Assembly (NCBI GenBank): GCA_030374765.1
Contig: JARGXX010000100.1
Coordinates: 930,001-994,000, forward strand
Direction of reading: 5' to 3'
Origin: Agarophyton chilense
Taxonomy: Eukaryota; Rhodophyta; Florideophyceae; Gracilariales; Gracilariaceae
Length of the DNA: 64,000 nucleotides
The notes under the pieces are model-generated. The model saw nothing but the letters and a program-made list of their open reading frames with translations. It was not told the origin of the DNA and made no database searches. Positions within the stretch are counted from its first letter, which is position 1. Each line of letters opens with the position of its first letter. Shown piece by piece: positions 9,531 to 60,455 of the stretch. The translations under genes and the position numbers were made by a program.

Positions 9531-11195
9531 AATTCGCATTCCAGTTCGCTTTGGCACCAGTGTCCATGTATTGTTTTTCATTAGGGAATGTATTTCTTTT
9601 TCCATTGCGGTGCTTCAATATTTTTATCAGATTCTGCTTTTGCTTCTTTAAAAGATTGAGGTTCCATTCCATTTGCTAACATCATAACTGCTCCTGTTGC
9701 AGTATTTTCATCTTCTTCAGCATGCTCGTACGTCAGCCATGCTGGTGTCTTTTTGGCTCTTGAGGATCGTCTAGGGCCGATTTGATGTGTTTTCGAATTT
9801 TCGTCGTTCTGAATTTCTGGTTCTTGAGTATTATCTGTGGTTCAAGTGCTTTCTTCCAGTTGTTCTTCGAATTTATTTTCTTCTGCGTTCACTTCAAATT
9901 CATTGTCTTTCGGGAGCTCCAAAAACTGTGCATTTGCGCTTACTATAAGCTTTTTTTGTATTGATGTCCATGAATCTGTAGTTTTTTCCGTCATACCCGA
10001 TAAAAGTGCATAGTCTTGATTTAGCATTCCATTTTGTCCGCTTTTCTTTCGGAGAAAAAACATAGGCCTTACATCCAAAAATTCTGAGATTGGAAAAGTT
10101 CGGCTTCCTTCCAGACCATTTTTCTTCGGGACTCATGTTTTTTAGAATTTTTGTTGTATTAATATTTCTGATTTTTTTTGCCGTTTGTACTGCCTCAGCC
10201 CAAAAACGTTAAGAAGTATTATGATAATAAAGCATATAACATGCTTTTTCACATGATGGTCTGTTTAGTCTTTCAGCAATTCCGTTTTGTTGCGGCTGGT
10301 GGGCAGCTGTTGGCTCATGAACAATTCCTTTCGATTTAAAAAATTCTTGAAGTTCGGTAGTCATATATTCTCCCCCTCTGTCACTGCGAATTATTTTGAC
10401 AGAAAGTCCAGTTTGATTCTCAGCCATTTCAATAAATTCCTTCGTCTTCTGAACCGTCTCGTCTTTTGTTTTCATGAAGTAGACAAAAGATTTTCGAGTG
10501 TAATCATCTGTACACGTGACAAAATAAACTTTTCCACCCTTTCACAGAGTTTTCATAGGACCACAGAGGTCTGTGTGAATTAATTCCAGCTTTGATTTTG
10601 CTTGAAAGTCTTTAAGCGGTTTAAATGACTTTGAAACCATTTTTCCCAGAACACATCCCTAACAGTAATTTTCCGTTTTCAGTTCTAGTTTCGTCGGTAT
10701 TCCAATAGCAGTTCGTTTCGAAAATATTTGTTTTAGAACTGATTGTCTAGTGTGTCCCAGTCTTGCATGCCATACTTCATAATTTTCTTGTGTGACCGCA
10801 TAAGCGGAATAGTTAGTTTTCGGAGTTTTGTAGGCTTTGAAGCAGTACGTTGATGATTCCTTTCGAACATTCAAAATTATTTCCTCGTTATGTGTTGAAA
10901 TGATTCTGCATGACCCATTTTGAAAGTGAGTAGAATGACAGCGTTCATCAATCTGTCCGACAGATAAAATACTAGCAGCAACTCCGGGTACATGCAGTAC
11001 GTCACAGATTTTTAGAGCTTTACTTTCCATATTTTCATTTTTGTACAGTTCGACATTTCCTTTTATGTTTGACGAGATTTTTGTTCCATCACCAAGTCAA
11101 ATCGTAACAGGATCACTTTTCTATCCACTGTTGGCGACAAACCATCTCTCATTGTTTGTCATAAGGAAAGATGCTCCTGAATCCAGGTACCACGT
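9531..11195 (-). pseudogene. copia A protease-integrase region, broken
   Basis: Fragments in changing frames give the protease active site WYLDSGASFLMTN (about 11155-11195), VLHVPGVAASILSVGQ, and a GAG-pre-integrase WHARLGHTRQS. The integrase core follows with acidic residues in IHTDLCGPM, RSDRGGEY and QQNGIAERLNR. The integrase C-terminus reads FGCKAYVFSPKEKRTKWNAK. An in-frame stop interrupts the core at PMKTL*KGG. A Ser/Glu/Lys-rich linker then leads to EPQSFKEAKAESDK, just before RT, where the element stops. Not functional. Confidence 0.8.
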
Positions 11196-12010
11196 TCCTG
11201 ACAGTTCGGCGTTTCTTCCTGAGCCATTAAAAAATTTCCAGTCCTTTGCCATGTATACTGAGATGATTTTGTTGAATTCCACGTCTGAATTCTATCTTTG
11301 TAGATACCATTTTTCTCATCCCTCTTTCTAATGTGGCAGTCTCGAATTCTGTGTCCCTTTTTCTGACAGTAGTGACACTTGAAAGGAAAGTCCGACGATT
11401 TCTTTTCATATTTTCCTTGAAAGAAATTCCCGCTTTGTTCTTTTTCTGATGTAGAATTTTTTCTAGATTCTTCTCGCAGAATTCTAACATGCAGTTCTTC
11501 GATTGATAATTTTTCTGCGATGTTTTCCAATGTCACTAAAAGACTTTCGTATGATTTTGGTAGTCTTTGTAAGAGACGCATGATATATCCTTCTTTTGAT
11601 TTTTGAACACCCAGTTGATGTAGTCTGGTTTTCAAACGTTTCAATTCCTCAATATATTCTTTTTCGGAATCTCCTTGTTTCAGTTTCTTTGAAATAAATT
11701 GTTCTTCTAAGTCCCTTTTGTTTGCCATTCCTTTGTTTTCATAAACTTCTGACAATGCGTTCCATGCTTCTGCTCCAGTCGTAGCCGATTCGACATAAAC
11801 AATTTGATTGTCGTCTACTGGAAGGCTGATATCTATTAAAGCCTTTTCATTTGCCGTAGCATTTTCTTCTGTTTGTATGACAGCCTTCCAATAAATTTTC
11901 TTCTTCAAATAATTCATCATTTTTAGTTTCCATGAGTAATAGTTGTCTCCATTAAGTTTCTCATTTATAAAGGTATTTTTCTCCTCCATGTCCATTTCGT
12001 TCTGTATCAC
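11159..12010 (-). CDS. copia A Gag with CCHC zinc knuckle
   Basis: This 283-codon ORF starts MIQNEMDMEEKNTFINEKL. The N-terminal part, with NGDNYYSWKLKMMNYL, LWNAL-like and LEEQF-like blocks, is the UBN2/Gag capsid pattern of copia elements. LPKSYESLL marks the conserved Gag C-terminal helix. CHYCQKKGHRIRDC (about residues 214-227) is a CX2CX4HX4C zinc knuckle for RNA binding. After about residue 266 the frame diverges: the protease text WYLDSGAS is read in another frame from about 11190, so an indel separates gag from pol. Gag would build the cytoplasmic particle. Confidence 0.8.
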   Translation of the reverse strand: MIQNEMDMEEKNTFINEKLNGDNYYSWKLKMMNYLKKKIYWKAVIQTEENATANEKALIDISLPVDDNQIVYVESATTGAEAWNALSEVYENKGMANKRDLEEQFISKKLKQGDSEKEYIEELKRLKTRLHQLGVQKSKEGYIMRLLQRLPKSYESLLVTLENIAEKLSIEELHVRILREESRKNSTSEKEQSGNFFQGKYEKKSSDFPFKCHYCQKKGHRIRDCHIRKRDEKNGIYKDRIQTWNSTKSSQYTWQRTGNFLMAQEETPNCQERGTWIQEHLSL

Positions 12011-12517
12011 GCTTATTCAATATATTCTTATCAATTTCTGTGTAACAATGATTCGACTCTGTTGATTTTTCTCAGTATGTAGCTACGACAAAGAAAAATA
12101 TGAAATTCTGGAGATGGCGATTGACAATTGTTGTTGGTTTTTGAACAATGGTTTTCAATATCGATTAAAATCAAAAAAATCTGATATCGGACGACTCTGA
12201 AAAAACTCTGAACTGTTGCTGCACGATTTGGCTCGGTTCTGATTTCGATTTCCAACGATTTCGAGCGACCAATTATGGTTTTGCACGATTCTGATTTGGA
12301 ACACTACAGTGCGATGTTCAGTTTTTTCACGATTTTTATTCTGACCATTTCTTATACTGTTCTCTTCGATTCTTGACGGTTTGAACAATTCTAAAAGGTT
12401 TCAACCGGTTTTGGCCGATTCTGAATTTCGGCGCAGTTTCTGTCTCCTTTCGTGATGAGACTTCTCTTTGCGTTAGGGTACACTTGTAGATGATGAGTAG
12501 ACTAGTCCTGTACGTAG

Positions 12518-17509: not shown

Positions 17510-19159
17510 CTAACCAGTGGGTGCATTAGAGTTTCGGAATAAAGCACTATGAAAGTCCATGGATATTTTTCCATCAAAAAACATTAACTCTAAAGCTTGA
17601 GAGATAGGGCTATCGGTTTTTGTCAACGGATCAGCATAGTTTGCGCTACCTGGAATCCATATCATTCTGTCAACGTTTCTTGTTTCAAATTCGTATCTGA
17701 TTACGCTGACATCTCCACGAATAGAACGATCTGCAGCGTTGCGACAGGTAGAAAGTGTGCCAAACAAATCCTTTGAGTCCACAACGATCCACAGTCCAAC
17801 GTGAATTCCTAACAAAGCCTGGAATGCCTTACAAAGTACCTTGCCCTCATCTATGGCCTCTCCTGCAGCCAGAGTTTCGGTCGATCCAATTGATTTAACT
17901 GGTCTTCGGGACATATGAGAACTCCAGGAAATGACATGAATGACACAGTCTTGCTTCAGTTTTCCAAAAAGAAGTCCAGCGACAAACCCAAGCTGTCCAT
18001 AGTCGTTCGTTCGGCTTGCGTCAGAAAATACTACAATTGAGATCTGATATTCTTTTCCACTGAGTGGCCTCAGGAACCTTAGTGACGTTCCTTTTCTCTT
18101 CAGAGTGCGCAGCATATTAATCTGCGTTATCATGTCCTTGATAGTAGGAAATGGCCCTTTCTGCTGCAAATAGCTTGCCGCAAATGCGCAAAACGGAGAG
18201 GCGGCAATGCCAAGCCAGCAAATTGAACTGTTCAGCGACCTGAATGATGAGAGCTCAATGCTGTTCAGCTGAGTTTCCTGGTCTTTTCTCCTTAAACGAC
18301 TAATTGTTCCGGCTTCGTACCCTTTCAGCTTTTCGTCTCCATCGATGGTAACTGTGTATTCTTCGTTCTGAGTAAGCGCCAGACCATAAAACTGTACCCT
18401 ACCTGGTCCATACACTATCGTGCCAAGTTTATGGTTGTGTCTTATTTTTTCTATTATTGTAGACAAATTCTTTCTCTCTCCAGCAAAGAGGATGTCATCG
18501 ACCACTTTGACTGCAATGACTACAACTTTTCCATCCAATTTTTTGTAAAAGAGCTGCGGCACGTACACGAGCTGCGAAAAACCAAAGCCACGTAGCACAT
18601 CATCACTAAGCTCTTGCCACTTGGCCCCTGCATTTGCGAGACCATAGGCTGCTGATAGCAGCAACCAGTAGTGCTGATGACGTGTTTTGCATTCGCGAGG
18701 AGGTACCATGTAGACATCTCGTTGAGCTTCCGTTTGAAGAAAGGCGCTCTTGAAGTCGATCTTTGCCAGAGTCCACCGATAGATCGTAGAAAGAGACAAC
18801 AGTATGCGGATACCAACTGGTGGGCATGTTGCAGAGTCTGTTTTCAGGGCATGCTTTTCTCGATCCTTATTGCCATGTACTGCAATTCGTGCCTTTAGTG
18901 TCAGCGAGTTATCATCACACTTCTTCACCTTGTAAAGGACGTGGCTTGATACTATGTTCGCGTTTTTAGGAACTCAAGAAACGGCTATATCTCTCACAAT
19001 CTTCTTAAATGACCGTTCTTCCTTGTCATAGGCATTCTGTGTTGCAAAGGGTGGTAACCCCTGTGCTTGGTGCAACATAAATTCTGTATTTCCGAACGCC
19101 TTGTAATAGGTCTGAATGAGGTCTCTCTCTGTGCTTTGCAAGTCTTGCCCTGGCGACAA
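17510..19159 (-). pseudogene. copia B reverse transcriptase-RNase H
   Basis: A second frame opens near 19159, with a stop at 18974, and continues as a 472-codon ORF (18928-17510). RT motifs include IDFKSAFLQTEAQRDVYM near residues 55-75 and VKVVDDILFAG near 140, where the usual Y of YVDD is V. RNase H follows with VVFSDASRTNDYGQLGF (about 295) and WIVVDSKDLFGTLS (about 380), ending ANYADPLTKTDS, a typical copia C-terminus. A frame change near 19150 separates it from integrase. The enzyme would copy the element RNA within particles. Confidence 0.85.
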
Positions 19160-27314: not shown

Positions 27315-27479
27315 GGTTAGAATTTTATTGCAAAGCGGCACCTCCTGCTCCAGACAGTTTTTTTTAGTATTTAAAGCATACATAATAAGATGAGCCTTTT
27401 TTCATCGGATGTCGAACTTGTTAAAGAATATTCAATACAGCAGCCAAGGTCGTTGATTTTGCGGTAGGCAATCATTTCG

Positions 27480-28313
27480 ATGGATCGCGATTTTAGCCGT
27501 AGTTGCAAAGAACATGGCGGCCGGAAAAAACGGTCTCTGCCCGATGGAAGTAGAAGCCCTTCACGGTTCTCCTGCAGAAATCAAAACGCCAGAAATGATG
27601 TTGGAAAGCCAGACGCTGCACAGATCCAAAGACCGCTGCGACGTACGAAAGTGTCAATTAGAGAGCTCCTCAATCCAAATGACAGTGAGCAGATTCTACA
27701 GAGCCCTCGGGCGCAATCTGGACTTATGCGGAATAGCCCGGAGCTTGACTCCCAATCAACTAGACCAGAGTCTGGACACGCCGGAAAGAGATCGCGAGTT
27801 TTAGGAGAAGTGACCGATTTGCTCCCCAAGACGTTGATTCAACTTTCTGTGATGGGTAGCGCATCCGGCGCTGGGCCTAGCAGCGGTGTGGTTCTTCAGA
27901 GGACCACGGAAGGTGGAAGTGCTGAAGAGAATCGTCGCAGTCATAATGGCGGCGGTGCAGCTCAGTCTCACAAATTGTGTTGTGAGATATGTGGAAAGAT
28001 GGTGCATTGGACCAGTATTACGCAACACAGGGCTACACATAATCCAAACAGGGAACGCCACTCATGCAGGCAATGCGAGAAATCGTATATGAGCAAAGGA
28101 GCGTTGACGAAACACATGCAGATACATGATCCTCGGTGCAGATTCTATTGTAGTGGTTGCGACAAACAATTCATCAGCAGGAGCCACCTGGAGAGGCACA
28201 TGCATGTGCATGATCCGCAGACCAGGCCTAGATTTGAGTGCGACGGATGCGGCAAGACTTTTGTTCAAAGGTGGTGCTTTACGAAACACAAGAGAGAAGC
28301 TTGCAGGCGTTGA
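27480..28313 (+). CDS. C2H2 zinc-finger protein
   Basis: The ORF encodes 277 residues in a single exon. The first 150 or so residues are Ser/Arg/Pro-rich and probably disordered. Four fingers follow. Finger 1 (from CEICGKM) has 11 residues between Cys2 and His1 instead of 12. Fingers 2 (CRQCEKSY...H...H) and 3 (CSGCDKQF...H...H) are canonical CX2CX12HX3H. Finger 4 (CDGCGKTF...HKREAC) ends in Cys, a C2HC form. The short His-Asp-Pro linkers, IHDPRCR and VHDPQTR, replace the usual TGEKP. A nuclear DNA-binding role is likely from the family; the target is unknown. It is one of the few undamaged genes here. Confidence 0.85.
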   Translation: MDRDFSRSCKEHGGRKKRSLPDGSRSPSRFSCRNQNARNDVGKPDAAQIQRPLRRTKVSIRELLNPNDSEQILQSPRAQSGLMRNSPELDSQSTRPESGHAGKRSRVLGEVTDLLPKTLIQLSVMGSASGAGPSSGVVLQRTTEGGSAEENRRSHNGGGAAQSHKLCCEICGKMVHWTSITQHRATHNPNRERHSCRQCEKSYMSKGALTKHMQIHDPRCRFYCSGCDKQFISRSHLERHMHVHDPQTRPRFECDGCGKTFVQRWCFTKHKREACRR

Positions 28314-45235: not shown

Positions 45236-46807
45236 CTACTCAGGGCAACCCTGAATGTTGACGAACTCTAAATTGGCCGCATCAAGATCTCCGCCACTCT
45301 CAGTGTACCTGAAGTTGCAATCAAAAGCCCCTTTCGTTTCACAAATGCTGCTCTTCACGGAAAAAGTGTTGGTCACAGTCGTTACAGCGTCTGAAGTGAA
45401 TATGGTTGGCAGAGCAGGGGTATGCGTAAATGTCATTTGGGCAGCGCATTCTGAGCCATCAACGTCGAGAATACGTGGCAAGCCCTCAATTAAAGTTTCA
45501 ATGCCCTCTACCAGTTTGGACTGGTCGGTCTCGGTGAGTACTGATCCATTCGTAGATGTTGTGATGGCTGTTGTCTGGCCTGAGCCGGCAGAGCCACTAC
45601 TGCAGCCATATCGCGACGGAACGATATCCATTTTTCCGAAATTGATGGCAATTGTGGTGATGAAAGCGCTGTTCAAAGCGTCGATGACCGAGTTTCGATC
45701 CAGCCGAGTGCCGCCAGAAATACACGTAGGCTCATGACCGGGATAATCTCCAAAATATAGCAGGATTCGGCGCGAACCTTCTCTCCATCCGATACTTGGG
45801 TCCGTAGCAATTTTGTACAAGGCCACTAGATTGGCCTCGTCTACATCGCCTCCACCAACAGCACTTTGGGCGTTGATAGCTGCTGTTACCAGATCCTTGT
45901 TGTCCGTTATAGATTGCTGGTTGGTGAAGCCGTAGTTAGGGTCGTTTTCGTCTCGGAACATGCCCACGCCGAATCTGACGTTAGGACGGGACCCAAAAAC
46001 GTTCATGATCTCTAGCGCCCTTTCTTTAGCAGTACTGATGGCCACTGACATGGATCCGGTGCCATCACTGAGCATGTACATATCGGTCTTAAGAGGAGGG
46101 GCTCTCAAATCGAGCTTAAAGGATACCTCTTGGAGACTGTCAATGGTGACATTCTCAAAGACAACCTTGTCTCCAGGACATACCACGAATTCGTCGGTCA
46201 AGTCTTTTCGAAGATTGCACGTGAAACCAGAAGCACACATCTCCAAGGAACAGCCAAATTGAACCAGACCGGCACATTCTCCGAAAAGGCCAGCGGAAAA
46301 TGGTGTGCACTCAGAAGGACATTTACCGAAGGTAAACACGGAGCTGGAGGTCTTTTCTTCGCAGACGGATGGATCGGCGGTGTGTGCGACGCTTCTTCCA
46401 AGATGTGGTCTGCGGTTTGAAGATTGCCACTGCTTATGTTGTGGAGTTGGGCCGTAGTAGGGGCTGCGCTGCACGTGATGGCCAGGATGTACTTGAGTAA
46501 TTGGTTGCTCGTCGACGCCCTGAAAGAGGCCTGGGAAGGAAGACTGTCTTTCTACATACACAGGCTGACTCGGAGTGAAATAATGGCGTGGGCGATGGAG
46601 CCGAGAAGCATACTGCAGACGATGGGCATAGTAAGAAATGTCATTTCGGCCAGACGTGAGCATAACAAACATTAGAGTGGTAACAACCACAACAAGGGCG
46701 ATACGGACACGACGAGATATGCGAGCTCCGCGGGGGTGTACAAAGGTGGGATCGGTAGCGACCGCAGGAACATAGCCTGAAGGGATGGCATTGTAGATGT
46801 GATCCAT
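45236..46807 (-). CDS. Integrin-beta-like VWA membrane protein
   Basis: The frame is open from 46960, but Met at 46807 (MDHIYNAIPSG) is preferred because a TATA-like element lies about 80 bp upstream. This gives 523 residues. A single membrane segment, RIALVVVVTTLMFVMLTSG, at about residues 35-53 follows a basic stretch, suggesting a type II signal anchor. A Cys-rich region (CEEKTSS...CPSEC...CAGL...CSLEMC...C) leads into a VWA/I-like domain: DMYMLSDGTGSM (MIDAS DxTGS form), NVRFGVGMFRDE, GGGDVDEANLVAL (MIDAS Thr/Asp region) and IGWREGSRRILLYFGDYPGHE. The last block closely resembles integrin beta 'IGWRN.SRRLLVF..D...H'. A cell-surface adhesion role is inferred. No stops or frameshifts. Confidence 0.8.
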   Translation of the reverse strand: MDHIYNAIPSGYVPAVATDPTFVHPRGARISRRVRIALVVVVTTLMFVMLTSGRNDISYYAHRLQYASRLHRPRHYFTPSQPVYVERQSSFPGLFQGVDEQPITQVHPGHHVQRSPYYGPTPQHKQWQSSNRRPHLGRSVAHTADPSVCEEKTSSSVFTFGKCPSECTPFSAGLFGECAGLVQFGCSLEMCASGFTCNLRKDLTDEFVVCPGDKVVFENVTIDSLQEVSFKLDLRAPPLKTDMYMLSDGTGSMSVAISTAKERALEIMNVFGSRPNVRFGVGMFRDENDPNYGFTNQQSITDNKDLVTAAINAQSAVGGGDVDEANLVALYKIATDPSIGWREGSRRILLYFGDYPGHEPTCISGGTRLDRNSVIDALNSAFITTIAINFGKMDIVPSRYGCSSGSAGSGQTTAITTSTNGSVLTETDQSKLVEGIETLIEGLPRILDVDGSECAAQMTFTHTPALPTIFTSDAVTTVTNTFSVKSSICETKGAFDCNFRYTESGGDLDAANLEFVNIQGCPE

Positions 46808-46880
46808 AGAGCGGGAGGAGCGGCACCGAACTGGAGCGCCAATGATGACGGGAAGAGATGGGCAAATTGGGGAGAGAAGC

Positions 46881-46894
46881 ACGGTATAAATACG
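46881..46894 (-). promoter_or_regulatory. TATA-like element upstream of the VWA gene
   Basis: The minus strand reads CGTATTTATACCGT about 75-85 bp before the ATG at 46807 and is followed by a pyrimidine-rich stretch. Position and sequence suit a core promoter, which is why the longer frame start at 46960 is not preferred. Confidence 0.4.
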
Positions 46895-47695
46895 CTTGTC
46901 ACACTGCTCACAGGCAATTGTTTTGAAACTCGCCCCTGATATCGTACTGGGGCAGTACATACATGAGATTTATGATGCGCTCCAGATGTGTACAAATAAA
47001 GGCAGGTCACGATGTGGGCGAATTGGAAGCACTTGGCCGATTCGACATCAAATCTGGAAGCAAAAAGAAACTGCGTAAGAACACGTTTGTGCCTGGAGGC
47101 AGTATGGAACGCAAAATCGTGGTACTGTAAGTAAGTTGATTGGTATTTAGGGATGAAGGTCGAGAAGGTGTGATGGGCAACTTGCGACATTTCTTTAATA
47201 CGGAAGCAACTTCGCTTACCCTTGATCATCGGGGAGATGTGTGGTGGCCCGATGGAGCGAGGTGACTGTACCATCGGGGCTTTGAGCGTTCCGACCACCG
47301 TTACTACCAATAGAACCGTTCCAATGTAACTGCACCATAACTTTTGTGAAAAGAATGACATGGTGAACGAAAAAGCGGGGCTCGACCTTCCAAAATGCAC
47401 CATAATCTGCGGTTTTGGTGCAGTCCCAAACTAATTAGAAAAAGTACAATTTGTTTTCTACTCCCTTGCAGATCACAAGATTGGCGACACATCGGTTCTG
47501 CCGCCCCAAGGACCTCGCCATCGGGCAGCTCTGCACTGTGCCACAGCAGCGCTCCGCAGCGTTCCGAAAGAAGCGTTCCCGTGACCCCTCTGCAGCAAAA
47601 CCACACTTCCTGATGATATCATGTCCACGCACACGCAATGAATTAAAACTATAACATATGCGTTTGAATTTCAAGAACAATAGTATCGATAGCAA
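46895..47695. other. Intergenic region with duplicated 5' splice-like blocks
   Basis: A minus-strand frame from Met at 47361 reads MSFFSQKLWCSYIGTVLLVV with a signal-peptide-like hydrophobic run, then reaches GGTAAGC (47214-47220), a good 5' splice site. A related block at about 47920-47980 has GGTAAGC at 47956-47962 followed by similar sequence (GCTTCAGTATTAAAGAA-like). These may be exon-intron edges of an upstream or alternative first exon, or just duplicated intergenic DNA. Confidence 0.3.
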
Positions 47696-48401: not shown

Positions 48402-48628
48402 CGTGCTACAGCACTCCTTTGCTTCGTTCCAAAAATAAAAACAGTTCCAATGGAAGGGGGCACGTCGCTCGTAGTCTTGGCCATCTGCCACACGAAACGT
48501 CTTTCAACGAGTGAAAAAATAAAAGCTGAACCCTCAGTGACCAAAGCTTCCAAAACTCTCGCTCTACTACACACACGAGTACAACCATTCAACTTGGATG
48601 TTTCGAATCAAAGTCTGCAACTGCAATC

Positions 48629-51600
48629 ATGGTAACAGCAACATCTCCGACGCCCAGCCCCCTCTTTGAGAAGGTGCTCAAACGCTATACAGATCGTTCC
48701 TACAAGTTTACCACCACCATCAATCATGGTGGCACCATCGTGTGCTTCGCGGTTGATGATCAACGCCAAATCTTTTACGCTGTGCTTGACTTGCAAACAG
48801 ATGACAAGCAGCGCGGTGATTTCGACGTTGCGTTTTGGCCCTCTGAACCATCCCCTGTCCCGTTCCCAAAGGAGATTGTACAGGTCGGATTCAGCATCGC
48901 TGGTGCTACACTCTTGCCCGATGTTCATCGTCAGTCACTGCAGGAAAAGCCACCGGGTGAAATTCAGCGTTCCGATATTCATCACTTCCTGTCTACCACC
49001 GCACGCCTGTCTAGCCTGTCACCCATTCATGTATTCTCCGATGGTCGTTATATCTTCTTGTTTCGGCAAGCAATTGCCACCAGCGATAGTTCAGCACTAT
49101 ACAAGCTGGAAGACGGTGGATGCTCGGCGGACATTATTCGTCCAGAGGCAGATTACATCATCTCGAAAGGAAACAAAGTGCCCATCGTGAATGAAACGCT
49201 CCTGTGTGATGTATTTGTACTTGTGGGCACGGAGATTCGTAGTGCAAGAGAAGTTCGGTATAGGAGAAGCCGCCACAAAACTCTTCCTGCCAGCAATAAG
49301 GATTCACTTGCAGCCACCGATATGGATGGAAACAAATTCTTCATACCTACGCAGGAGTTTGATTTCATTCGTAATCTGTCCGGTCGTAACTTCAGTGTGA
49401 TGCAGCTCCCCACACAAGTATCAGGGCTGAAGAGATGGCAAGTATTCGTGCACAACAACTTATCGAGGATGATAGATATGTTCAACTTCGAGGTTGCTCC
49501 AGATGGGCTCTTCTTGTTGGCGGGCTCACAGCTTTACACTAGTCCTGATCCGAATCACCAGACGGATGTTTTGGAGAGGTCTCCAGGTACCTGTCCGTTC
49601 ACGGACAAACCTCTCATTCCGAAGAAGAGCGTGACAGGGCATGCGGAGTCTTGTATCCTTATTCCAGCTACTGGTGGCTACGCAACAACTACATACACCT
49701 CATTCGACTCAACAGTGTTCTCTATCGAGATGTGGATCAAACTAGACCCTGACAATGAACAGCCCAATGGATGTTTTCTGTTTGTTAGTCAAAGCTCGAA
49801 CACGGATAATAAGTTTGTGATTGATGTCAATTCAGACGGCATGTTCAGATGCCGTAATTTTTCCTCCTCTTTGGACCTCGAACTGGCACCAACCTCAACG
49901 GAGTGGACTCACGTTTCTGTCACTTTTGATGGAAAGAAGGTAACAGGATATCGCAATGGAAGCAAGGTGGCGTCCGTTGAGCAGACCGGTCTTGTTTTTC
50001 GCTTCAACGACATAACGATTGGAGCAAATTCCTCGGGCTCAAACTCCTTAAACGCCTACTTTGATGAAATTCGGGTTTGGAATCGGGTGTGCACTGAAAT
50101 AGAGATTGAAAGTCAGCGACATGTGCGGCTTGTTGGAAGTGAGCCTGGTTTGATGAGCTACTGGCGTCTTGACGAAGGCGGCGGTACAATTGCCAGAGAC
50201 CAAGGTAGCAAGAATTCTACCCTCAATCTTCAAGGCAATGCTCTTTTTGCCTCATCGGATTGTCCGATCGGAGATAATTCGTCTGTTCGAAGGAGTAGTG
50301 TGGGTTTTGAAAGTACGAGTCAAAGAAGCATTTCAGGAGGAGTCAGTGCATGCTTGTATTATGAGCAAGAAACTGTCAGCAACATTGGCTACGGAACAGG
50401 GGGGAAGGCGATGAAGAAGCAAGCAAGGGTGATGGTAACAACTGCAACAAGTGCGATGGTAGGAGACTCGGATCCCGCAATTACAGCTTTGGATTTCGCT
50501 GTTTCTAGGGAAGGTCGTCTCGCGCAAGTACCGGACGCTGTTGAACTTCCGATCATTGACGTGACAGAATCTCCGCAAGCGAGCCTGTCTAATGAGCAGA
50601 ATGTGGCAAACCTCCAGAACAATATCACAAACGTCGAACGTGAAATTCGCTACAGGAAGGACGCTATATCGAATGTCAAAAGGGAGCTTGAAGGAACTAG
50701 CTTAACTACGGCCCAGCGAACAGAGAAGGAAGGACGACTTCGAGCATTCACCGTATCTCTCAAACAGTTCATGGACCAATGGGATCTGTGGAGCAGCGAG
50801 TACCGAGCGCTTAGCTCGGACCCTTCTGCCGCGCGCGCTTTCCCTCTCCCAAACGTCCATTACGACCCCTCGGGTCTGACAGTATGCGCTGGACTCATGA
50901 AATTTGCGATAGATGACGGCGGTTCATTTCTAATGTATAGTGCAACCGGTCATGTTACGGCATACTTCAGAGAAAGTCAGAATGGAACATTCAATGTGTG
51001 CCATTTTGACACACGAACTGAGCGCACACGATTCAAAGTGTCCTCTCAACTCGTCCTGCAGTCGAGAAACAGTGGGAACTATGGCGCAGACAAAGTTTCA
51101 ATCAGCCCCGGAGACTCAGACGAAACTTGCGTTCTAACCATTGAAGAGAAGAGTCGGGAAATTGTAGAGACATGGGCAAACATTCCCCGAGATCCTGCGG
51201 AAATGAGCGCGCTTCTCAATGGAACAGAATCACGGCCCGACAATGTTGTGGTGACAAACACCCTTCCGTCCGCAAGCACGTCGGGCAAGTCCTTTCTCGT
51301 GACAGCTAGATATGTTGGCTCCGACGTTCCATATATGGCACCAGATGGAGAAGCATCAATTACATACGGATTAGACAAGTCATGGAAAACAGATCATCCT
51401 GGAAAAGCGTACAAGTTTCAAGCAAACACTGGTCTCATGGCTTTGCCGTCAAAGAATCTCCACCAGACGGTTGCGAAAGGACATCTTACCATTGAGTTAT
51501 GGATCAAAACTGGATACGCCACTAGTTTTCCCTCTGCGTGTCTGGTTCATCACGTTTCGGACAAATTAGCTTATACTGTGTCTATTTCTCATGATATTAG

Positions 51601-54600
51601 TGAGACGCGAAAGTTTTTTATATTGATCGGAAATTCCTCCGGAACCATCGAGAATCACAAAGGGGAAAAGATTCTCACCAGCAAGCAGGCTCTTCTCTTA
51701 GATGATTGGACTCATTTAGCGATGCGTTTCCGTCAGTCCTATGCACTGCAGTTTGGAGCGAAGCAGTACATCGATTGCGGGAAGAATGCCGTCCTGAACA
51801 TAACCCAGGACATTACCATCGAAGCGTTTGTCTTGTTCAAGACCAATAGATCTCAGGGGCTTCTCGGAAAAGGTACGCTTGGAAAGCAAGGAGTACCATA
51901 TCAGCTCAGTATAACCAATGATCGAAGAATTGAGTTTGTGTTCCAAGACAAAAATAGAAATCGTGTGTCGTATTTATCTGACGGCCAAATAACTTTGGGG
52001 AAACTTCAACGAATAGCGGTTACGAAAAAAGGAGGAAAAGACAAGAATGAACACAAAGAGCAACGAACGTTCAACTATAAGAATCAGGACGGGGTGTCTC
52101 AAAGCATGGAGGTGGAAGTTGTTTCAGAGGTTGGAGTGAGTGATTTCTTTGACATTTTGTTTTACATTGACGGAGTCAAGGTCGGAACGAGCCGATATAG
52201 TGGAGAAGACCCCGTCGGTGGTAGTGAACCTTTGGAGATTGGACGCTGCCGAACATCCATTGGCAGTGTGTTGGACACAAGCGGCGTTATATCTGAAGTG
52301 CGGTTATGGGACAAAGCCTTGGAAATGAAGGATGTTGGGAGCAACATTGAAGGTATGGAGCCGAACCTTGTCTGTTGGTGGAAGTTTGAGGAAGGTGAAG
52401 GAAAGGTAGCGAACGACTTCAAGAATATGGCGCATGGCAGGATTATCGGAGCCGAATGGATAAAGAATCCTGACCCTCAGGCTAGTCTATTCAAACTATA
52501 CGTCAACGGTCTTGAAATGGAAACTTCTGCTCCAAACACGAACAATTTTTGGATGCTAGACAAATGGGGTGAGCCCGGATTCTATATCGGATGCTCGCAA
52601 GTCGGAGGGGCCACATCCAGGCTTTTGAATGGTACTCTGGAAGAAGTCCGCATATGGAATTGTCTTCGTACCGAAGAGCAAATTACTGATAACCTGTTCA
52701 CCAGGCTTAAAGGGGAAAAGGAGAGTTTGTTGGCCTACTACAACTTTGATACCAGGTCAACTGCTGCCGAGGCAACTCAGCTTTTCGATTCCAGTCTTGT
52801 AGGTAACAATATTCCTTTACCAGCCGATATAATCGCTCATCCAGCTTCTGTTGTTTCAACAGCGCCGATAAGCACAGAGGCCCCGGTGGTTCGTTCTGCA
52901 CTTTTAGGAACGGATACCTTTCTGCACAGGCAAATTGATGGCGCACCAGGTGTTTCTGAATATGCTGATATGCAGCGAGATTCTGAAGGAAACCTAACCG
53001 GAGTGTACAAGCGATGTTACAGTTATCTTACCAATGGAGAATGGAATCTTTTCACTGGATACAAAGTGGGAAACCTTGTGACTGAGTGGATTGGACAAGC
53101 TCAGTTTGATCCACAGGTCATCGGATTTATCGAGGGAGCTCCTCCAGTTCCCACAGAAAATCTCGTAATGGGCACCGTGGACTCAGCCGACGACCGCGGA
53201 ATTGTAGAGCTCATCGACAGTGAAGAAGTAAGTTATACGGTTGGAGCATCTAAAGAGAAGAGCTGGGACGCCAGCTTCAAAGCTGGTGGAAAAATTGCTA
53301 TGGGATCCGACGATCTTTTGATTACGGCACCTCTAGGACTTGGTATGGCAAAGAAAGTCACCGATATTGATGTTAACATAGGCATGAGCGGGAATTTTAG
53401 TGTGGAAAATAGTTGGAGTCAAGAAGAATACCAGTCTCAAGGGCGTGTTCGTACCCGAAAGATGACGGTCTCTACTGGGGGCGGCTTTGAAGACATATTG
53501 GAAACTAATCAACTCAATCCCGTGTTGGGGAGACGGGCCCTTCCTGGAAATGCGGGTCTGGCTCTTGTGCAGTCCAGTACAGCCGATATTTTCGCTTTGC
53601 GCCTAGTTCACAATGGAGCACTGGTCTCCTTGCGTATGTTACCGAATCCAGACATCCCGCAAGATTGGAATATTATTTCGTTTCCCATGAATAACCGATA
53701 CACCAAACAGGGTACCCTTGACGGAAGGGTCGGATATGATGCTGACGGAGGAGTAGTTCTGGACAATGATTACGCAGGAGCAGCTTCATATGGAGAGTAC
53801 AGCTATTACAAACCTAAGGAAGCGTACCGCATAGCAGCACGTATAAAGCGGGATGAAGAACGGTTGAAGAGTTACTACGCTGAATATGATGTAGGTATGG
53901 GGTCAACAGCAGGCGCAGTTATTGGATCTGCCGCCGGTGCGGCTGCTTCGTTGATGATCCCGGGAGCAGGTCCATTCATCGCCGCTAAAGCTCTTGATTA
54001 CGGAATGAATGCTATCAATCAAGCTTCGAAACCTCCTAATCTTGCAGGGAAATTTGCTAAGCGCGACATGGTTAACACCTATGTGTGGACTGCGGATGGA
54101 GGATTCTTTGCCGAGTCAACTGAAAGCACCGAGTCAAGAACAGAGGTGAGCTCAGGATCATTCAACTTCAAAGGCGCTTTTGGACTGGCCGTGGACGCGA
54201 CAATAGAGGTTTTCAGTTTCGGTGTAACCTTTGAGTTTGAAGCAGCGATGGGAGGTTCAATGAGCATTACTAAGACGAAAAAGAAGGAAAGCTCAAAAAG
54301 TTTTTCCATAAATGCAAGTGTTGATGTGCCTGGACGGTTGCAGAAATATGAAATGGATGATCATGGTCATTGGGTTGGCGTTTTTAACGACTCTGGAGAT
54401 CCTATTATTGTGGCCGGTAAGGTGGACGCGTACAGATTCAAGACGTTCTATCTCGATTCCTCAAGTGAGAATTTCGAAGATCTGTTCGAGAAAGTGGTGG
54501 ATCCGATATGGTTCAGTGAAAGCAGCGCTCCGAACGCCTTAGCTCTTCGACAGGCGTATCAAAGTGACAAGAAGCCACCATGTTGGCGAGTATTTCACAG

Positions 54601-54865
54601 GGTGACGTTTGTCAGTCGAATTTTGCCCGAAGTTGTAACAGATGCTGCTGCTGCATCCATGGAAACTGTGATGAAAAGTAATAAGGTTAACAGCAACTGG
54701 CAATTGGTGCAACAGTTAGAACCATACGTTCTCAGCAAACGTCATGATTTTGCATTGTTTGCGGACGCTATACGACAAGCGCTGAGGTCGAACATACCGG
54801 AGCTGGTGCCATACTCAGCAGATGTTGTCAAGTTCATGGCGGAATACTACGGCATGGATGTTTAG
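48629..54865 (+). CDS. Giant LamG/concanavalin-like multidomain protein
   Basis: A single 2078-codon ORF without stops. Residues 1-340 are beta-rich with DGRYIFLF and DGLFLLAG repeats, perhaps a propeller. A first LamG/ConA-like domain spans about 340-545 (IEMWIKLD, AYFDEIRVWNR, YWRLDEGGG). A coiled coil lies at about 652-725. A second LamG is at about 950-1030 (IELWIKTG), a third at about 1036-1250 (ISEVRLWDKAL, WWKFEEGEG), and a partial fourth at 1286-1377 (LEEVRIWNCLRTEE, YYNFD). A Gly/Ala-rich hydrophobic segment (1757-1795; AGAVIGSAAGAAASLMIPGAG) precedes a conserved-looking C-terminal region. No signal peptide or membrane anchor is obvious. LamG domains usually bind glycans or proteins. 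The architecture recalls large bacterial proteins, so transfer is possible but unproven. Confidence 0.85.
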   Translation: MVTATSPTPSPLFEKVLKRYTDRSYKFTTTINHGGTIVCFAVDDQRQIFYAVLDLQTDDKQRGDFDVAFWPSEPSPVPFPKEIVQVGFSIAGATLLPDVHRQSLQEKPPGEIQRSDIHHFLSTTARLSSLSPIHVFSDGRYIFLFRQAIATSDSSALYKLEDGGCSADIIRPEADYIISKGNKVPIVNETLLCDVFVLVGTEIRSAREVRYRRSRHKTLPASNKDSLAATDMDGNKFFIPTQEFDFIRNLSGRNFSVMQLPTQVSGLKRWQVFVHNNLSRMIDMFNFEVAPDGLFLLAGSQLYTSPDPNHQTDVLERSPGTCPFTDKPLIPKKSVTGHAESCILIPATGGYATTTYTSFDSTVFSIEMWIKLDPDNEQPNGCFLFVSQSSNTDNKFVIDVNSDGMFRCRNFSSSLDLELAPTSTEWTHVSVTFDGKKVTGYRNGSKVASVEQTGLVFRFNDITIGANSSGSNSLNAYFDEIRVWNRVCTEIEIESQRHVRLVGSEPGLMSYWRLDEGGGTIARDQGSKNSTLNLQGNALFASSDCPIGDNSSVRRSSVGFESTSQRSISGGVSACLYYEQETVSNIGYGTGGKAMKKQARVMVTTATSAMVGDSDPAITALDFAVSREGRLAQVPDAVELPIIDVTESPQASLSNEQNVANLQNNITNVEREIRYRKDAISNVKRELEGTSLTTAQRTEKEGRLRAFTVSLKQFMDQWDLWSSEYRALSSDPSAARAFPLPNVHYDPSGLTVCAGLMKFAIDDGGSFLMYSATGHVTAYFRESQNGTFNVCHFDTRTERTRFKVSSQLVLQSRNSGNYGADKVSISPGDSDETCVLTIEEKSREIVETWANIPRDPAEMSALLNGTESRPDNVVVTNTLPSASTSGKSFLVTARYVGSDVPYMAPDGEASITYGLDKSWKTDHPGKAYKFQANTGLMALPSKNLHQTVAKGHLTIELWIKTGYATSFPSACLVHHVSDKLAYTVSISHDISETRKFFILIGNSSGTIENHKGEKILTSKQALLLDDWTHLAMRFRQSYALQFGAKQYIDCGKNAVLNITQDITIEAFVLFKTNRSQGLLGKGTLGKQGVPYQLSITNDRRIEFVFQDKNRNRVSYLSDGQITLGKLQRIAVTKKGGKDKNEHKEQRTFNYKNQDGVSQSMEVEVVSEVGVSDFFDILFYIDGVKVGTSRYSGEDPVGGSEPLEIGRCRTSIGSVLDTSGVISEVRLWDKALEMKDVGSNIEGMEPNLVCWWKFEEGEGKVANDFKNMAHGRIIGAEWIKNPDPQASLFKLYVNGLEMETSAPNTNNFWMLDKWGEPGFYIGCSQVGGATSRLLNGTLEEVRIWNCLRTEEQITDNLFTRLKGEKESLLAYYNFDTRSTAAEATQLFDSSLVGNNIPLPADIIAHPASVVSTAPISTEAPVVRSALLGTDTFLHRQIDGAPGVSEYADMQRDSEGNLTGVYKRCYSYLTNGEWNLFTGYKVGNLVTEWIGQAQFDPQVIGFIEGAPPVPTENLVMGTVDSADDRGIVELIDSEEVSYTVGASKEKSWDASFKAGGKIAMGSDDLLITAPLGLGMAKKVTDIDVNIGMSGNFSVENSWSQEEYQSQGRVRTRKMTVSTGGGFEDILETNQLNPVLGRRALPGNAGLALVQSSTADIFALRLVHNGALVSLRMLPNPDIPQDWNIISFPMNNRYTKQGTLDGRVGYDADGGVVLDNDYAGAASYGEYSYYKPKEAYRIAARIKRDEERLKSYYAEYDVGMGSTAGAVIGSAAGAAASLMIPGAGPFIAAKALDYGMNAINQASKPPNLAGKFAKRDMVNTYVWTADGGFFAESTESTESRTEVSSGSFNFKGAFGLAVDATIEVFSFGVTFEFEAAMGGSMSITKTKKKESSKSFSINASVDVPGRLQKYEMDDHGHWVGVFNDSGDPIIVAGKVDAYRFKTFYLDSSSENFEDLFEKVVDPIWFSESSAPNALALRQAYQSDKKPPCWRVFHRVTFVSRILPEVVTDAAAASMETVMKSNKVNSNWQLVQQLEPYVLSKRHDFALFADAIRQALRSNIPELVPYSADVVKFMAEYYGMDV

Positions 54866-56209: not shown

Positions 56210-56220
56210 ATATCCCTAGT

Positions 56221-57128
56221 ATTTTTTTTATGTACGATGTATCATATATTAATGTTTACACATCAGGAGTTCAGCTGCACGCTTTGCGTTTCCGTTTCTG
56301 AGAGCCGTGGAGCAATTGAGGGCCTTCCAAAAAGCCGTAGGATAATTTTTACGGCTTTCGCAGCACTCTTTGCTATTCAAATAGAACAAAGAAAAACGCA
56401 ACTTATATATTCTCTAAAGCTTTTTGCGGAATGTACGACACATAGTACATAAAAAAAAGGTCCGAGACACCGATTTTTTGCGGCATTTCTAACTTGTACG
56501 AGGATGTAATCTATTCAACCGGTTTTCAGGCACTTCAGAACGGCATCGTCGCCGTACGACAATTTCTGCGGATCCCAAACGAGATGTGACACAGTCTCCT
56601 TCCCTACTGTTTGGGATAGTACTCATACGATGGAGAGATCTCGAAGGTGAACGGATATTGAGGGGTCTATTCGTATGCCACACATTTCAGAAGGACAGTC
56701 TAAATCCTGCATGCGTTTTAATATATAAATGTATCTCACGAATCGAGCATTTGAAAGAAAAACGATGACCTCTAGAAGCTCCCCTGCTAACGCTCCTTGT
56801 TCCACACAGTGCATACCAGCGCCCTTTCCGCATCTGCGTTTGGTTGTGTCCGTGCACATTCAGCCTCAAACTGGTGCCATTTCCACTATTAAATAACTGT
56901 ATCCTGTTTCGTCGATTCTCTCTCACAAGGACGCTGGCCTGTGCTCGAAGCCTGCTTGCTTCGTCTCCAGGAACCAAAACATGGTTCAAAGCATCGCTAG
57001 CGTCTCGTTCCTGTCTTTCCCTTACAATAATCTTCTCTGCATACTTAAGAAGCCCGACTGCAGCGTCGGCAAAAAAATTCTGCCAATGACCCTACTTTGT
57101 TTAAAGCATTTCGAAACAAGTTTAGATC
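56221..57128. other. Left subterminal region of the piggyBac-like element
   Basis: Contains the inverted-repeat motif at about 56233-56256 and the possible transposase tail at 56690-56989. Otherwise no gene is supported. A 71-codon plus-strand frame at 56237-56452 has no recognised features. Confidence 0.4.
56690..56989 (-). pseudogene. Possible C-terminal zinc-binding tail of the transposase
   Basis: Downstream of the YqaJ-like part, in another frame, the minus strand reads KGRWYALCGTRS...GHRFSFKCSIREIHL. piggyBac and related transposases end with a Cys-rich 'RC..C...R.....F.C..C...LC' region. The spacing is similar, but several cysteines are replaced (Trp-Tyr, Arg). If real, the nuclease lies between the catalytic core and the tail. 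Confidence 0.3.
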
Positions 57129-59789
57129 TTAGAAGCGATCTCCATGATCAACAAGATCTCTATTTTCTGACAACTTCCATGCTGTGAAAGCATTGACAAC
57201 AAGTGTTTTCAAGGTCTTTACAACTACTTTTTGCTCCCATTTTATAGCCGAGATAGAACTTCTGAGTATTGCACGCGCCTGTGCGCCCCCATCAACTCCT
57301 CCCTTTGCCTTGGAGTAAATGCTGTGCATACAGTGTTTGAAAAGTTTAAGAGGAACGAAGGCATCGTTATGCTTAACGTGATCATTAGCTAATTTCCAGA
57401 AATACAGCTTGTCTTTGAACACTTTCTTCGTCTTGGTATCTACAAATGTTGGAATGGTAGGGAAATATTCGTGTGCCCATGAAACGAGGGGGCCAGCTTT
57501 TTTCTTCAGACACACTCGAAACACTTCTGTTGCAGAATTATGAGCATCAACTAATCTGCAGGATAGCAACGCAGATTCCGAGAACATGATGTAAAGGCAG
57601 TAGTTGGTTCTCTTGAAAACCATCTGCTGCATCAGCTGGCCTGTATGCTCCCTGGGAATACAAATCTTGAAACTATCATCTCCATTCGTTGTACAAACCA
57701 AATCAAGTGTGGCATTTCGAAGTGCTCTGAACAAGGATGCGGTTGCTACGCTTGTCTTAATCTCGACGCCGCAAACCTGTAAAGATTGTTCTTGTGGTAC
57801 GGAATCGACCAATGTGGTTTTCGAAAGATCAATTAGGGCAATCCCATCCGGTAAACATGCCATCCAAGGGTTCTCCTTGTCGGCAAGCATCCCACATTCA
57901 TGTCGTGCCACAATAAAACCTTTCTTCAGAAGGGCTTTTATTACAACTCCTTCATTCGCTGTGCCTCTCATCATGGCTTCTATTGAGCGCTGTGAGCCGA
58001 ACCAAGATGTTCATAACTTTCTAGCTTTCTCCGCCAAAGTAGATTCGGATAGTGTCGTACTAGCATTGAATCCGAGTAGAGAGCATACCTGTTCATCTGC
58101 AAGAAGTGTTTCGCCCACAATAGTTCCAGTTATGCGAAACTATCTGAGTAAAAACCAGTCAGCGCATCGTTGTTCTATTGTCAACACCTTGCACGTAGAA
58201 TTGCAGTGAAAGTCAATCACATCCTCTCCTTCTCTGGACTCTGCAAATGGTATAACAAGCTTGCAAGCTCTCTATCTCTTACTAAACAACATGTCCCTAT
58301 GAGATTGGCCTTACGGAACAGCTACCCAACATTTGAGGACTGAATCGAGTTCATCTGGAAGACAATACGAAAAGCGGAGGATCTTAGAAAACTTTTTCGT
58401 CCCCCGCTCGCGAACCACAACGGCTGTTACAGTTTCCCTGGAAGCATACTGTTGATCGCGGAATATTTTCTCTTCGTACTTGCTTTGTGGGCCCTATGTT
58501 GGTCTGTCGTCAATCACCAAAGCTGCACGATCGTACAAATCCAAGTCTATCCTTATGTCCTGCTGGGCATCTCCAGCAGACTCATCTTCAGTTGCATTCT
58601 CAACTTCTAGATCCTCTCTACCTGTAATAAGGTGGGACATTTCGAAAAGCGGATGACACCTCAAGAAATGTTCAGGCTTGATGAACATAAATCCAATTCC
58701 CCGTCTTGAAAATGTCGGAACCATAGAAAACTTGCCATAACCTCTGTCGGCCGTTACTGTAAAACCTGCTAAAGACTGCTCTCTACGTGTCTCCAGTAAA
58801 GCATCAATGAGCTTCTCTACGTTTATAGCGAGAGCTTCTCCTCTTCTTCGAAAGCGCACCATAAGTGTAACACGAAATAAAGCGTCAGCAATAGCATCCA
58901 CACAGCGTCCTTCTTTTCCTGCCTTTTTCATGCTGTAAGTCTTAACCTTATTATCGGCCGCACGGGTTTCATACAGGTCATCATCTAGCGTTGCAAAATT
59001 ATGCCCCGGGGCCAGAAACACTTTGCAGGACATCCTGTATGCCTTTTTCTCAAATTCTGTCAAGCTAACGGTCTGATCTCTTTGTGAATTCCAAACAGTT
59101 TCCCCTTGATAGCCCCGTCCTGTGGCAGAGAATGCCAAAATGTTGGTACTTAAGTAGCGCACTACGTGGAGCTTTGGAATTGCACAGTCGAGCGTCTCGA
59201 GCATGGCAATGCTTTTCGAGAGGCTGAATCCGGAACACTGAGAGAATATCAATACGGCTAGGAACTGATATATGTCCGACATTTTCAAAGCCGTCACGGA
59301 TCCCTCTGATACCACAATGCCCTCGTTCACCCAAGTTCAACATTTATGCAACAATTCATCACAAAACAGTACGATGTAATGTGCCCGACAATGCTCCAAG
59401 TGCCTTACATTAAGTTCGGTGTGCATTCGATCCAATGCAGACCGACAAAAGAGAAGAGCACGTTCTGAAAGAACTTCCAAGATGAACTTGTTATCCATTT
59501 TGATGGTTTCGTTATTGACGTTCATTACTTTCCATCCTTGAGATGGATCCTTGCCATTTGTAACGTTTGCACGTGCAGACTCTCTTCCTGCTCCTCTTCC
59601 TCTACCGCGACCCCGCCTAGTCCCTCGAGCTCTACCTGTGCCTCTAGGACTTCCTTTGGTCCTTACTCTTGTGTGAAGTTCAAACTCTTTTATTATAGCC
59701 ATTCCCTGGGAGGCAAAGCCAACACTAGATGTACCACCCTCTTGATCTGTGGGCGCGCCATCATGCGCGGTCTGAACCTCTTCTTCCAT
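57129..59789 (-). pseudogene. DDE transposase fused in frame to YqaJ-like nuclease
   Basis: Three open segments, 59789-59337, 59330-58494 and 57974-57129, share one reading frame. Segment 1 is a basic Arg/Gly-rich tract (RGTRRGRGRGRG) plus helices. Segment 2 is transposase: SDIYQFLAVLIFSQCSG, FATLDDDLYETRA (first Asp), GRCVDAIADALFRVTL, VTADRGYGKFS (second Asp). Between 58494 and 57975 the frame still reads DWFLLR-stop-FRITGTIVGE, then TSWFGSQRSIEA, the start of a YqaJ domain. Segment 3 has MRGTANEGVVIKALL, NPWMACLPDGIAL (PDG) and VCGVEIKTS (ExK), the PD-(D/E)XK core. Six stops lie in the 887-codon frame. Known families suggest cleavage by the first module and exonuclease by the second. Confidence 0.65.
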
Positions 59790-60157
59790 TCTGGTACGGG
59801 GTCTCAGTCGAGATTTGAGGACTTTTCGAATGAGATGAGGAGGACTGCTAGTCTTGGGAGCTTACGGTGGGATCCTCCGGATGAAGTCAGATGATGTGGG
59901 GATAGTGTAGCGCTACGAAAGCCTTAACATCCTCATTTTTCGAAGTTAGAAAAAAATGAATACGTGGATTTTGTGGAAGAGCCTGGCGAACAAGATGGCC
60001 ATGTCAAAACATCTATTACAGAACTCCTTCCAGAAAAACGGCCCCGCAAAAGCACCCATAAAAAGGGCTTAATGTACTATACATCGTACATTAAGCGGTT
60101 TCCGAATAATCTAAAATTAGCTTATGTACAATGTATCGTACATTACAGGCACTAGGG
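59790..60157. other. Right subterminal region of the piggyBac-like element
   Basis: The region lies upstream of the minus-strand transposase frame, so its promoter should be here. It holds two palindromes of the same type, TTAATGTAC-N8-GTACATTAA at 60069-60094 and ATGTAC-N8-GTACAT at 60124-60143. A 63-codon plus frame at 59964-60155 is probably a shadow. Confidence 0.5.
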
Positions 60158-60455
60158 ATATGTATCGTTTTCGTTGAGTGTAGACGTCCTTGTTTATGCA
60201 AATGAAACGCATTCACATACATAGCGAGGCCTGCCACGTATGTGGCGTGCGCGACGTGTACGAAAAAAGTCGATCACGTATCTGATGCACCGCGGCCGGC
60301 GAGTCTACAAGAGCGAGGCGGGTGCCACGGCGATCTGCAGAGATCACTGGCATGCCTCTCTCTTTCAGAGAGTCCCCATCACTTGGCGGAAGGCAAATTT
60401 CTTAACGGTCAAACGAAGTAGACCAAGCAAACAAACTGTTTGCAACATACACAAC

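Follow-up and report, generated by a model that had tools for sequence, protein, structure and literature searches.

What kind of transposon would carry a phage-type nuclease in the reading frame of its transposase, and what might the nuclease do there? The question is raised by a degenerate element at 56214-60157 in a stretch of 64,000 nucleotides from the red alga Agarophyton chilense (contig JARGXX010000100.1; this whole stretch is called the window below). We read it as a decayed cut-and-paste transposon that encoded a single piggyBac-like D-D-D protein with a nested YqaJ nuclease, which would probably resect the donor break and thereby lead to a net gain of copies (probability about 0.6). 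This reading builds on features that sequence and structure prediction indicate. They are the placement of the nuclease inside the transposase, the active-site residues of both enzymes, the duplication of ATAT, termini reading CCCTA(G/A)T, a Cys/His-rich stretch at the C-terminus and, in some subfamilies, subterminal near-palindromes.

A bounded element with one decayed gene

The element spans 3,944 base pairs (bp) and contains one decayed gene on the minus strand. Its parts in the window are:

56210-56213: target-site duplication ATAT, left copy (sequence)
56214-56220, plus strand: terminal inverted repeat CCCTAGT, on the 3' side of the gene (sequence)
56214-60157, minus strand: whole element, a decayed copy of 3,944 bp (ends and near copies)
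56230-56250: subterminal near-palindrome, degraded in the window copy, where it does not exceed shuffles, and clearer in relatives
56651-57091 (about), minus strand: C-terminal part with a putative cysteine-rich finger, in a shifted frame (local tblastn of proteins P0001 and P0006)
57129-58010, minus strand: open segment with the YqaJ/lambda-exo core, then back into the RNase H domain with the third catalytic Asp
57279-57305, minus strand: KGGVDGGAQ, predicted third catalytic Asp of the transposase (aligned with the piggyBac stretch 437-503 that contains D447)
57621-57650, minus strand: EHTGQLMQQM, conserved Gln motif of YqaJ (alignment)
57753-57770, minus strand: GVEIKT, E-x-K of the PD-(D/E)XK active site (alignment)
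57834-57854, minus strand: LPDGIAL, Asp of the PD-(D/E)XK active site (alignment)
57948-57968, minus strand: RGTANEG, conserved Glu of YqaJ (alignment)
58011-58493, minus strand: bridge with stops, comprising part of the insertion sheet and the start of YqaJ (EQRCADWFLLR at 58143-58175)
58494-59336, minus strand: open segment with the helical domain and the RNase H fold as far as the insertion
58731-58754, minus strand: TADRGYGK, predicted second catalytic Asp (alignment)
58959-58988, minus strand: LDDDLYETRA, predicted first catalytic Asp (alignment)
59337-59861, minus strand: N-terminal open segment with an Arg/Gly-rich tract
60124-60143: subterminal near-palindrome at the other end, with a second, better one at about 60071-60092
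60151-60157, minus strand: terminal inverted repeat, ACTAGGG on the plus strand
60158-60161: target-site duplication ATAT, right copy

At the junctions ATAT is followed by CCCTAGT (56210-56220) and ACTAGGG by ATAT (60151-60161), and the 4-bp duplication is exact. The segments 59337-59861, 58494-59336 and 57129-58010 lie in a common minus-strand frame that runs from 59861 to 57129 over 911 codons, interrupted by six internal stops and closed by a terminal one. The bridge translation includes EQRCADWFLLR, a stop and FRITGT, and further on another stop followed by TSWFGSQRS. An earlier note, made by a model from the letters alone, had described an element with these ends and this duplication, three open segments in one frame, and a bridge still legible between stops, and the junctions and the translation bear this out. 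A fourth coding piece, the C-terminal zinc-finger part (about 56651-57091), was overlooked there and is in a different frame. Because of the six internal stops and the out-of-frame C-terminal part, we regard the window copy as a pseudogene.

Fused copies and homologues

In the same 80-Mb genome, the left-end stretch 56214-57200 has four further near copies with 79-88% DNA identity. Searched at the protein level, this genome has 120 stretches that match the YqaJ piece and 82 that match the DDE piece, counts that include the window's own stretches and in which several stretches sometimes come from one copy. Uninterrupted frames of the kind the earlier note proposed to look for are found in two copies. 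One at C33:376282-378930 has a single open frame of 883 codons that covers transposase and YqaJ and extends into the finger region, although the copy is covered only from the first codon of this frame onward. The other, at C98:220323-223058, has an open frame of 912 codons covering both domains, lies within a 4,212-bp element with similar ends, and has a single stop between the frame and the C-terminal finger region.

Database protein searches first gave 35 relatives; a search with a 38-sequence alignment (A2) gave 68, many of them the same, and one with the divergent P0058 gave seven including itself, for a total of 79. All searches were seeded with YqaJ-bearing queries, and the frequency of YqaJ-less relatives is not deducible from these counts. 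Five landmarks (the second catalytic Asp, the QRxxDW of YqaJ, PD, E-x-K and the GGVD motif) occur in this order in 32 of the 79 proteins; the remaining 47 lack at least one, mostly through shortness. Wherever both motifs are present, a GGVD-type motif follows E-x-K (37 of 37 proteins).

Relatives from named organisms include proteins of the Florideophyceae Gracilariopsis chorda and Chondrus crispus. The nearest to complete are the G. chorda gene models P0018 (YqaJ partly missing), P0030 (stops short of GGVD) and P0033 (begins past the second Asp). P0083 from Hondaea fermentalgiana (Labyrinthulomycetes) forms the end of a long gene model and stops within YqaJ. The Spongospora subterranea relative P0051 possibly represents contamination, because it comprises only the N-terminal half and no contig is listed for it. 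P0044 has a transcript-type name (GEZJ01006395.1), is 96% identical to P0001 over 46% of P0001, and spans the region from before YqaJ into GGVD.

The ancestor that the earlier note suspected, a single fusion protein, is thus supported by the two one-frame copies and the 32 one-chain proteins. The note had also named beforehand what would speak against a fusion, namely domains in separate genes or the lack of a YqaJ match, and the outcome is in the fusion's favour. The six stops and shifted C-terminus of the window copy might suggest that chance adjacency, or an assembly or pseudogene artefact, has united two unrelated genes. The 32 one-chain homologues from several sources, the predicted structure, the co-divergence described below and the element ends enclosing both domains refute this, and we give it a negligible chance.

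A nuclease of the lambda exonuclease type

The segment 57129-58010 matches Pfam YqaJ (PF09588) weakly (E 0.021; 15.5 bits, under the cut-off of 22) and a PHROG RecE-like exonuclease more clearly (E 9.4e-8). Less decayed relatives exceed the Pfam cut-off (P0002 with 23.8 bits, P0006 with 26.1 and P0043 with 32.7), and a YqaJ match at E<=1 occurs in 31 of the 38 A2 members, with a best value of 2e-7. The PHROG match and these relatives confirm the YqaJ-like PD-(D/E)XK domain recognized in the earlier note. Scores above the Pfam cut-off together with a predicted lambda-exo fold place the domain among the YqaJ/lambda exonucleases, and in the structure comparison the closest nuclease folds belong to the lambda-exo branch. 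Enzymes of this branch are usually exonucleases, and YqaJ proteins are usually phage recombination enzymes. The lambda exonuclease ring is a trimer.

Residue conservation was scored in an alignment of 31 long proteins out of the 79 (A5), from which partial proteins, P0018 (a gene model in which YqaJ is incomplete), P0035 and P0084 were excluded; the structure job used an alignment (A4) of 61 of the 73 proteins known at that stage. The PD-(D/E)XK residues are intact in 30-31 of the 31 sequences: D630, E658 and Q704 of the nuclease are invariant, and E595 and K660 are each present in 30.

Nesting within a piggyBac-like transposase

Sequence and predicted structure place the YqaJ domain between the second and third catalytic Asp, in the insertion region of the RNase H domain. 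The earlier note had the transposase followed by YqaJ; its single coding frame with both domains stands, whereas YqaJ lies between Asp 2 and Asp 3 and not after the transposase domain. In P0026, the end of DDE_Tnp_1_7 (PF13843) matches residues 976-1026, after YqaJ (704-884; 21.9 bits, just under the YqaJ cut-off). The front of PF13843 matches residues 73-226 of P0082 and 22-204 of P0079; neither protein has a Pfam YqaJ call, and alignment and the QRxxDW landmark put YqaJ after this front. Against a PF13843 cut-off of 22.4 bits, P0026 (29.1) and P0082 (26.0) lie above and P0079 (17.9) below. Two separate genes, or a YqaJ C-terminal to the transposase, are ruled out by the one-frame copies, the order in Pfam and structure, and the order of landmarks.

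The best match of the A2 profile in the PDB is the piggyBac transposase 6x67 (E 5.7e-5). The stretch 437-503 around D447 is significant alone, and two collinear stretches, 134-188 (10.2 bits) and 553-594, match weakly; with P0001 alone, nothing relevant was found among PDB sequences. A D-D-D triad and a related RNase H fold in the predicted structure are as expected for the piggyBac superfamily. The structure alignment with 9c0f extends to residue 1018, but with a root-mean-square deviation of 21. The putative C-terminal finger matches zf-Tnp_2 in 6 of 38 A2 members at E<=1, the best value being only 0.0059, and has conserved Cys/His in the alignment. P0016, P0021 and P0022 have an extra Cys-rich C-terminal module past the usual finger.

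Two of the transposase residues, D329 and D815, never vary in A5, and the third, D250, is found in all 30 proteins with a residue there. The YqaJ core has 216 columns, of which 24 are at least 95% identical; the corresponding figures are 19 of 120 for the part from the first to the second Asp, 8 of 65 for the part around the third, 6 of 131 for the insertion sheet and 4 of 161 for the N-terminal helical part. Pairwise distances measured in the transposase correlate with those in YqaJ (r 0.874, 465 pairs, none of 2000 permutations; the larger clade alone gives 0.77), which is what a single joining followed by common inheritance would produce. It might be argued that the module is merely an enlarged, non-catalytic insertion domain for DNA binding or assembly, since the DNA channel of piggyBac is lined by its insertion domain (PMC7351741). 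This is improbable, because 30-31 of 31 sequences, with identities as low as about 24%, retain the five YqaJ active-site and motif residues counted, and because the YqaJ core is more conserved than the insertion sheet.

Termini and target sites

All nine copies with both ends are flanked on both sides by exactly ATAT, although for most of them the search pattern already demanded AT beside the end. Among ends found without a flank condition, ATAT precedes 15 of 16 (7 of 7 in one search and 8 of 9 in the other), the exception being AGAT. Two more decayed copies are flanked by TTAT and ATGT. The termini read CCCTA(G/A)T and share the CCC start of the piggyBac superfamily, a result that holds for the window and for copies found with search patterns of which CCCTA formed part. 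The label "piggyBac-like" in the earlier note is appropriate by fold and sequence; we do not call the element piggyBac proper, because the superfamily duplicates TTAA and this element ATAT.

Some copies have a near-palindrome such as AATGTACGGTGTATCGTACATT from bp 14-17, and some ends have another near bp 67. Single-base shuffles (500 per end) matched the palindrome at most 12 times for 8 of 18 ends and 65 to 495 times for the other 10, and as just 8 ends stand out, we claim subterminal palindromes for some subfamilies only.

Between RNase H strands 1 and 2, at the place of the piggyBac omega loop, a motif RKADxEGHxAD is strongly conserved (P0006 residues 261-283; A5). In piggyBac the omega loop contacts TTAA (PMC7351741), and the motif might read ATAT in this family.

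Possible role of the nested nuclease

By homology, a transposase dimer would bind the ends, nick them and form hairpins over ATAT; the hairpins would then be opened and the ends joined to a new ATAT. After excision, the donor would be left with complementary ATAT overhangs, and these could prompt seamless re-ligation, by which the donor copy is lost. The nested exonuclease, kept at the break, may instead resect the 5' ends of the donor flanks (5'-3'). The break would then be repaired from a sister or homologue still holding the element rather than re-ligated at ATAT, and a copy would be gained.

The main rival has the same architecture, with a nuclease that acts on the transposon's own ends by second-strand cutting, hairpin opening or trimming of the 5' ATAT flap, as TnsA does for TnsB. 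In its favour are the location of the nuclease, within the insertion region of the transposase, and the natural TnsAB fusions, single polypeptides that combine TnsA with the transposase TnsB (PMC8188705). We nevertheless consider end processing unlikely, as the D-D-D site and ATAT duplication suggest the hairpin route of piggyBac, which needs no second nuclease (PMC7351741), and the closest nuclease folds lie in the mostly exonucleolytic lambda-exo branch.

Several points weigh against donor resection by a nested nuclease. It has no direct sequence evidence, and flap or hairpin processing accounts for the same conservation. No annealing partner protein was noticed within the element. Lambda exonuclease forms a ring (title of PDB entry 1avq), which would have to be accommodated by a transposase dimer. 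Pfam matches to the transposase are weak, with PF13843 in 7 of 38 A2 members at E<=1 and P0001 matching nothing. Removing YqaJ and a linker in silico barely raised the PF13843 score (P0026 from 29.1 to 32.4, P0079 from 17.9 to 19.7, P0043 from 10.5 to 12.6), and P0006 had no match; given these slight gains and the missing match, we set the removal aside as proof of nesting. The 32 complete proteins come from sources without an organism name, whereas named organisms contribute partial or altered gene models, none with all five landmarks.

With donor resection still the preferred reading, a possible history, offered tentatively and with the odds somewhat against it, is that an ATAT-specific piggyBac-like enzyme gained an active lambda-type 5'-3' exonuclease in its catalytic domain once, before two clades (one that includes red-algal and one that includes thraustochytrid members) split, and that seamless cut-and-paste gave way to copy-gaining transposition via recombination-directed repair. 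In DDE transposases the interval between the second and third catalytic residues can accept insertions, and the known ones have structural or nucleotide-binding roles. In this family the inserted module is a second nuclease, complete and conserved, which would put two DNA-cutting active sites in one chain. The family could serve as a natural test of whether transposons steer donor-break repair, which bears on the old question of how cut-and-paste elements gain copies. It also offers a naturally fused resection enzyme on a piggyBac-like scaffold, and adds ATAT as a target in a group known for TTAA.

Other features of the window

Remains of a Copia-type long terminal repeat retrotransposon occur at 17513-18973 and 11162-12016 (both minus strand), with an RVT_2 reverse transcriptase (E 3.6e-20) and Retrotran_gag_2 (E 3.4e-25). 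A 2,111-codon open frame at 48530-54862 (plus strand) has three Laminin_G_3/concanavalin-like matches (whole-protein E 7.2e-51), and near it a frame of 577 codons encodes a von Willebrand/integrin-beta-like domain (45239-46969, minus strand). The open frame at 27468-28310 (plus strand) encodes a C2H2 zinc finger (E 1.5e-14).

Comparison with known systems

Lambda exonuclease, LHK-Exo and YqaJ are phage recombination enzymes and, unlike the nuclease of this element family, no part of a transposase. The P-element transposase (PDB 6pe2) has a GTP-binding domain inserted in its RNase H fold, but the inserted domain is no nuclease and the superfamily is another. TnsA is a PD-(D/E)XK-type nuclease of a family other than YqaJ. 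Nuclease and transposase share one polypeptide in TnsAB as they do here, although TnsAB arose from fused neighbouring open reading frames of bacterial Tn7-like elements (PMC8188705).

Two eukaryotic groups carry related nucleases. KolobokE, a DDD/E transposon, has a PD-(D/E)XK lambda-exonuclease-like nuclease, but downstream of the transposase domain, and Kolobok elements have TTAA duplications, 5'-RR...YY-3' termini and Glu as the last catalytic residue (Kojima & Bao 2022, PMC9587614). Membership in KolobokE is ruled out by the ATAT duplication, the CCC...GGG termini and the nuclease between Asp 2 and Asp 3. ISL2EU (PHIS superfamily) is a DNA transposon bearing a YqaJ exonuclease domain, in a separate open reading frame, with an AT duplication, termini that are usually GG and a Harbinger-type DDE (PMC4482050). 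Against this description, the one-frame copies, ATAT duplication and CCC termini rule out ISL2EU.

The closest likeness by sequence profile is to piggyBac (Trichoplusia ni, PDB 6x67; piggyBat, 9c0f), with an RNase H fold with D-D-D, a KGGVD motif, a similar domain order, termini starting with CCC, a 4-bp palindromic AT-only duplication and, putatively, a Cys-rich C-terminal region. The left end of piggyBac begins CCCTAG, and its finger dimer binds a palindrome at bp 17-33 (PMC7351741); in some subfamilies here a near-palindrome starts at about bp 14-17. The differences are the duplication, ATAT and not TTAA, the distance from the second to the third Asp, 486 residues in P0006 versus 101 in piggyBac, and the lambda-exo/YqaJ nuclease that is inserted there in this family. 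A literature search by titles and abstract openings (Repbase and most subscription papers, in which a description is possible, lay outside its reach) gave, among the matches listed, neither a YqaJ nested within a DDE domain nor one fused to a piggyBac-like transposase. That eukaryotic transposons can carry YqaJ/lambda-exo proteins is already known, and within the literature searched the nesting and the piggyBac-like partner are apparently new.

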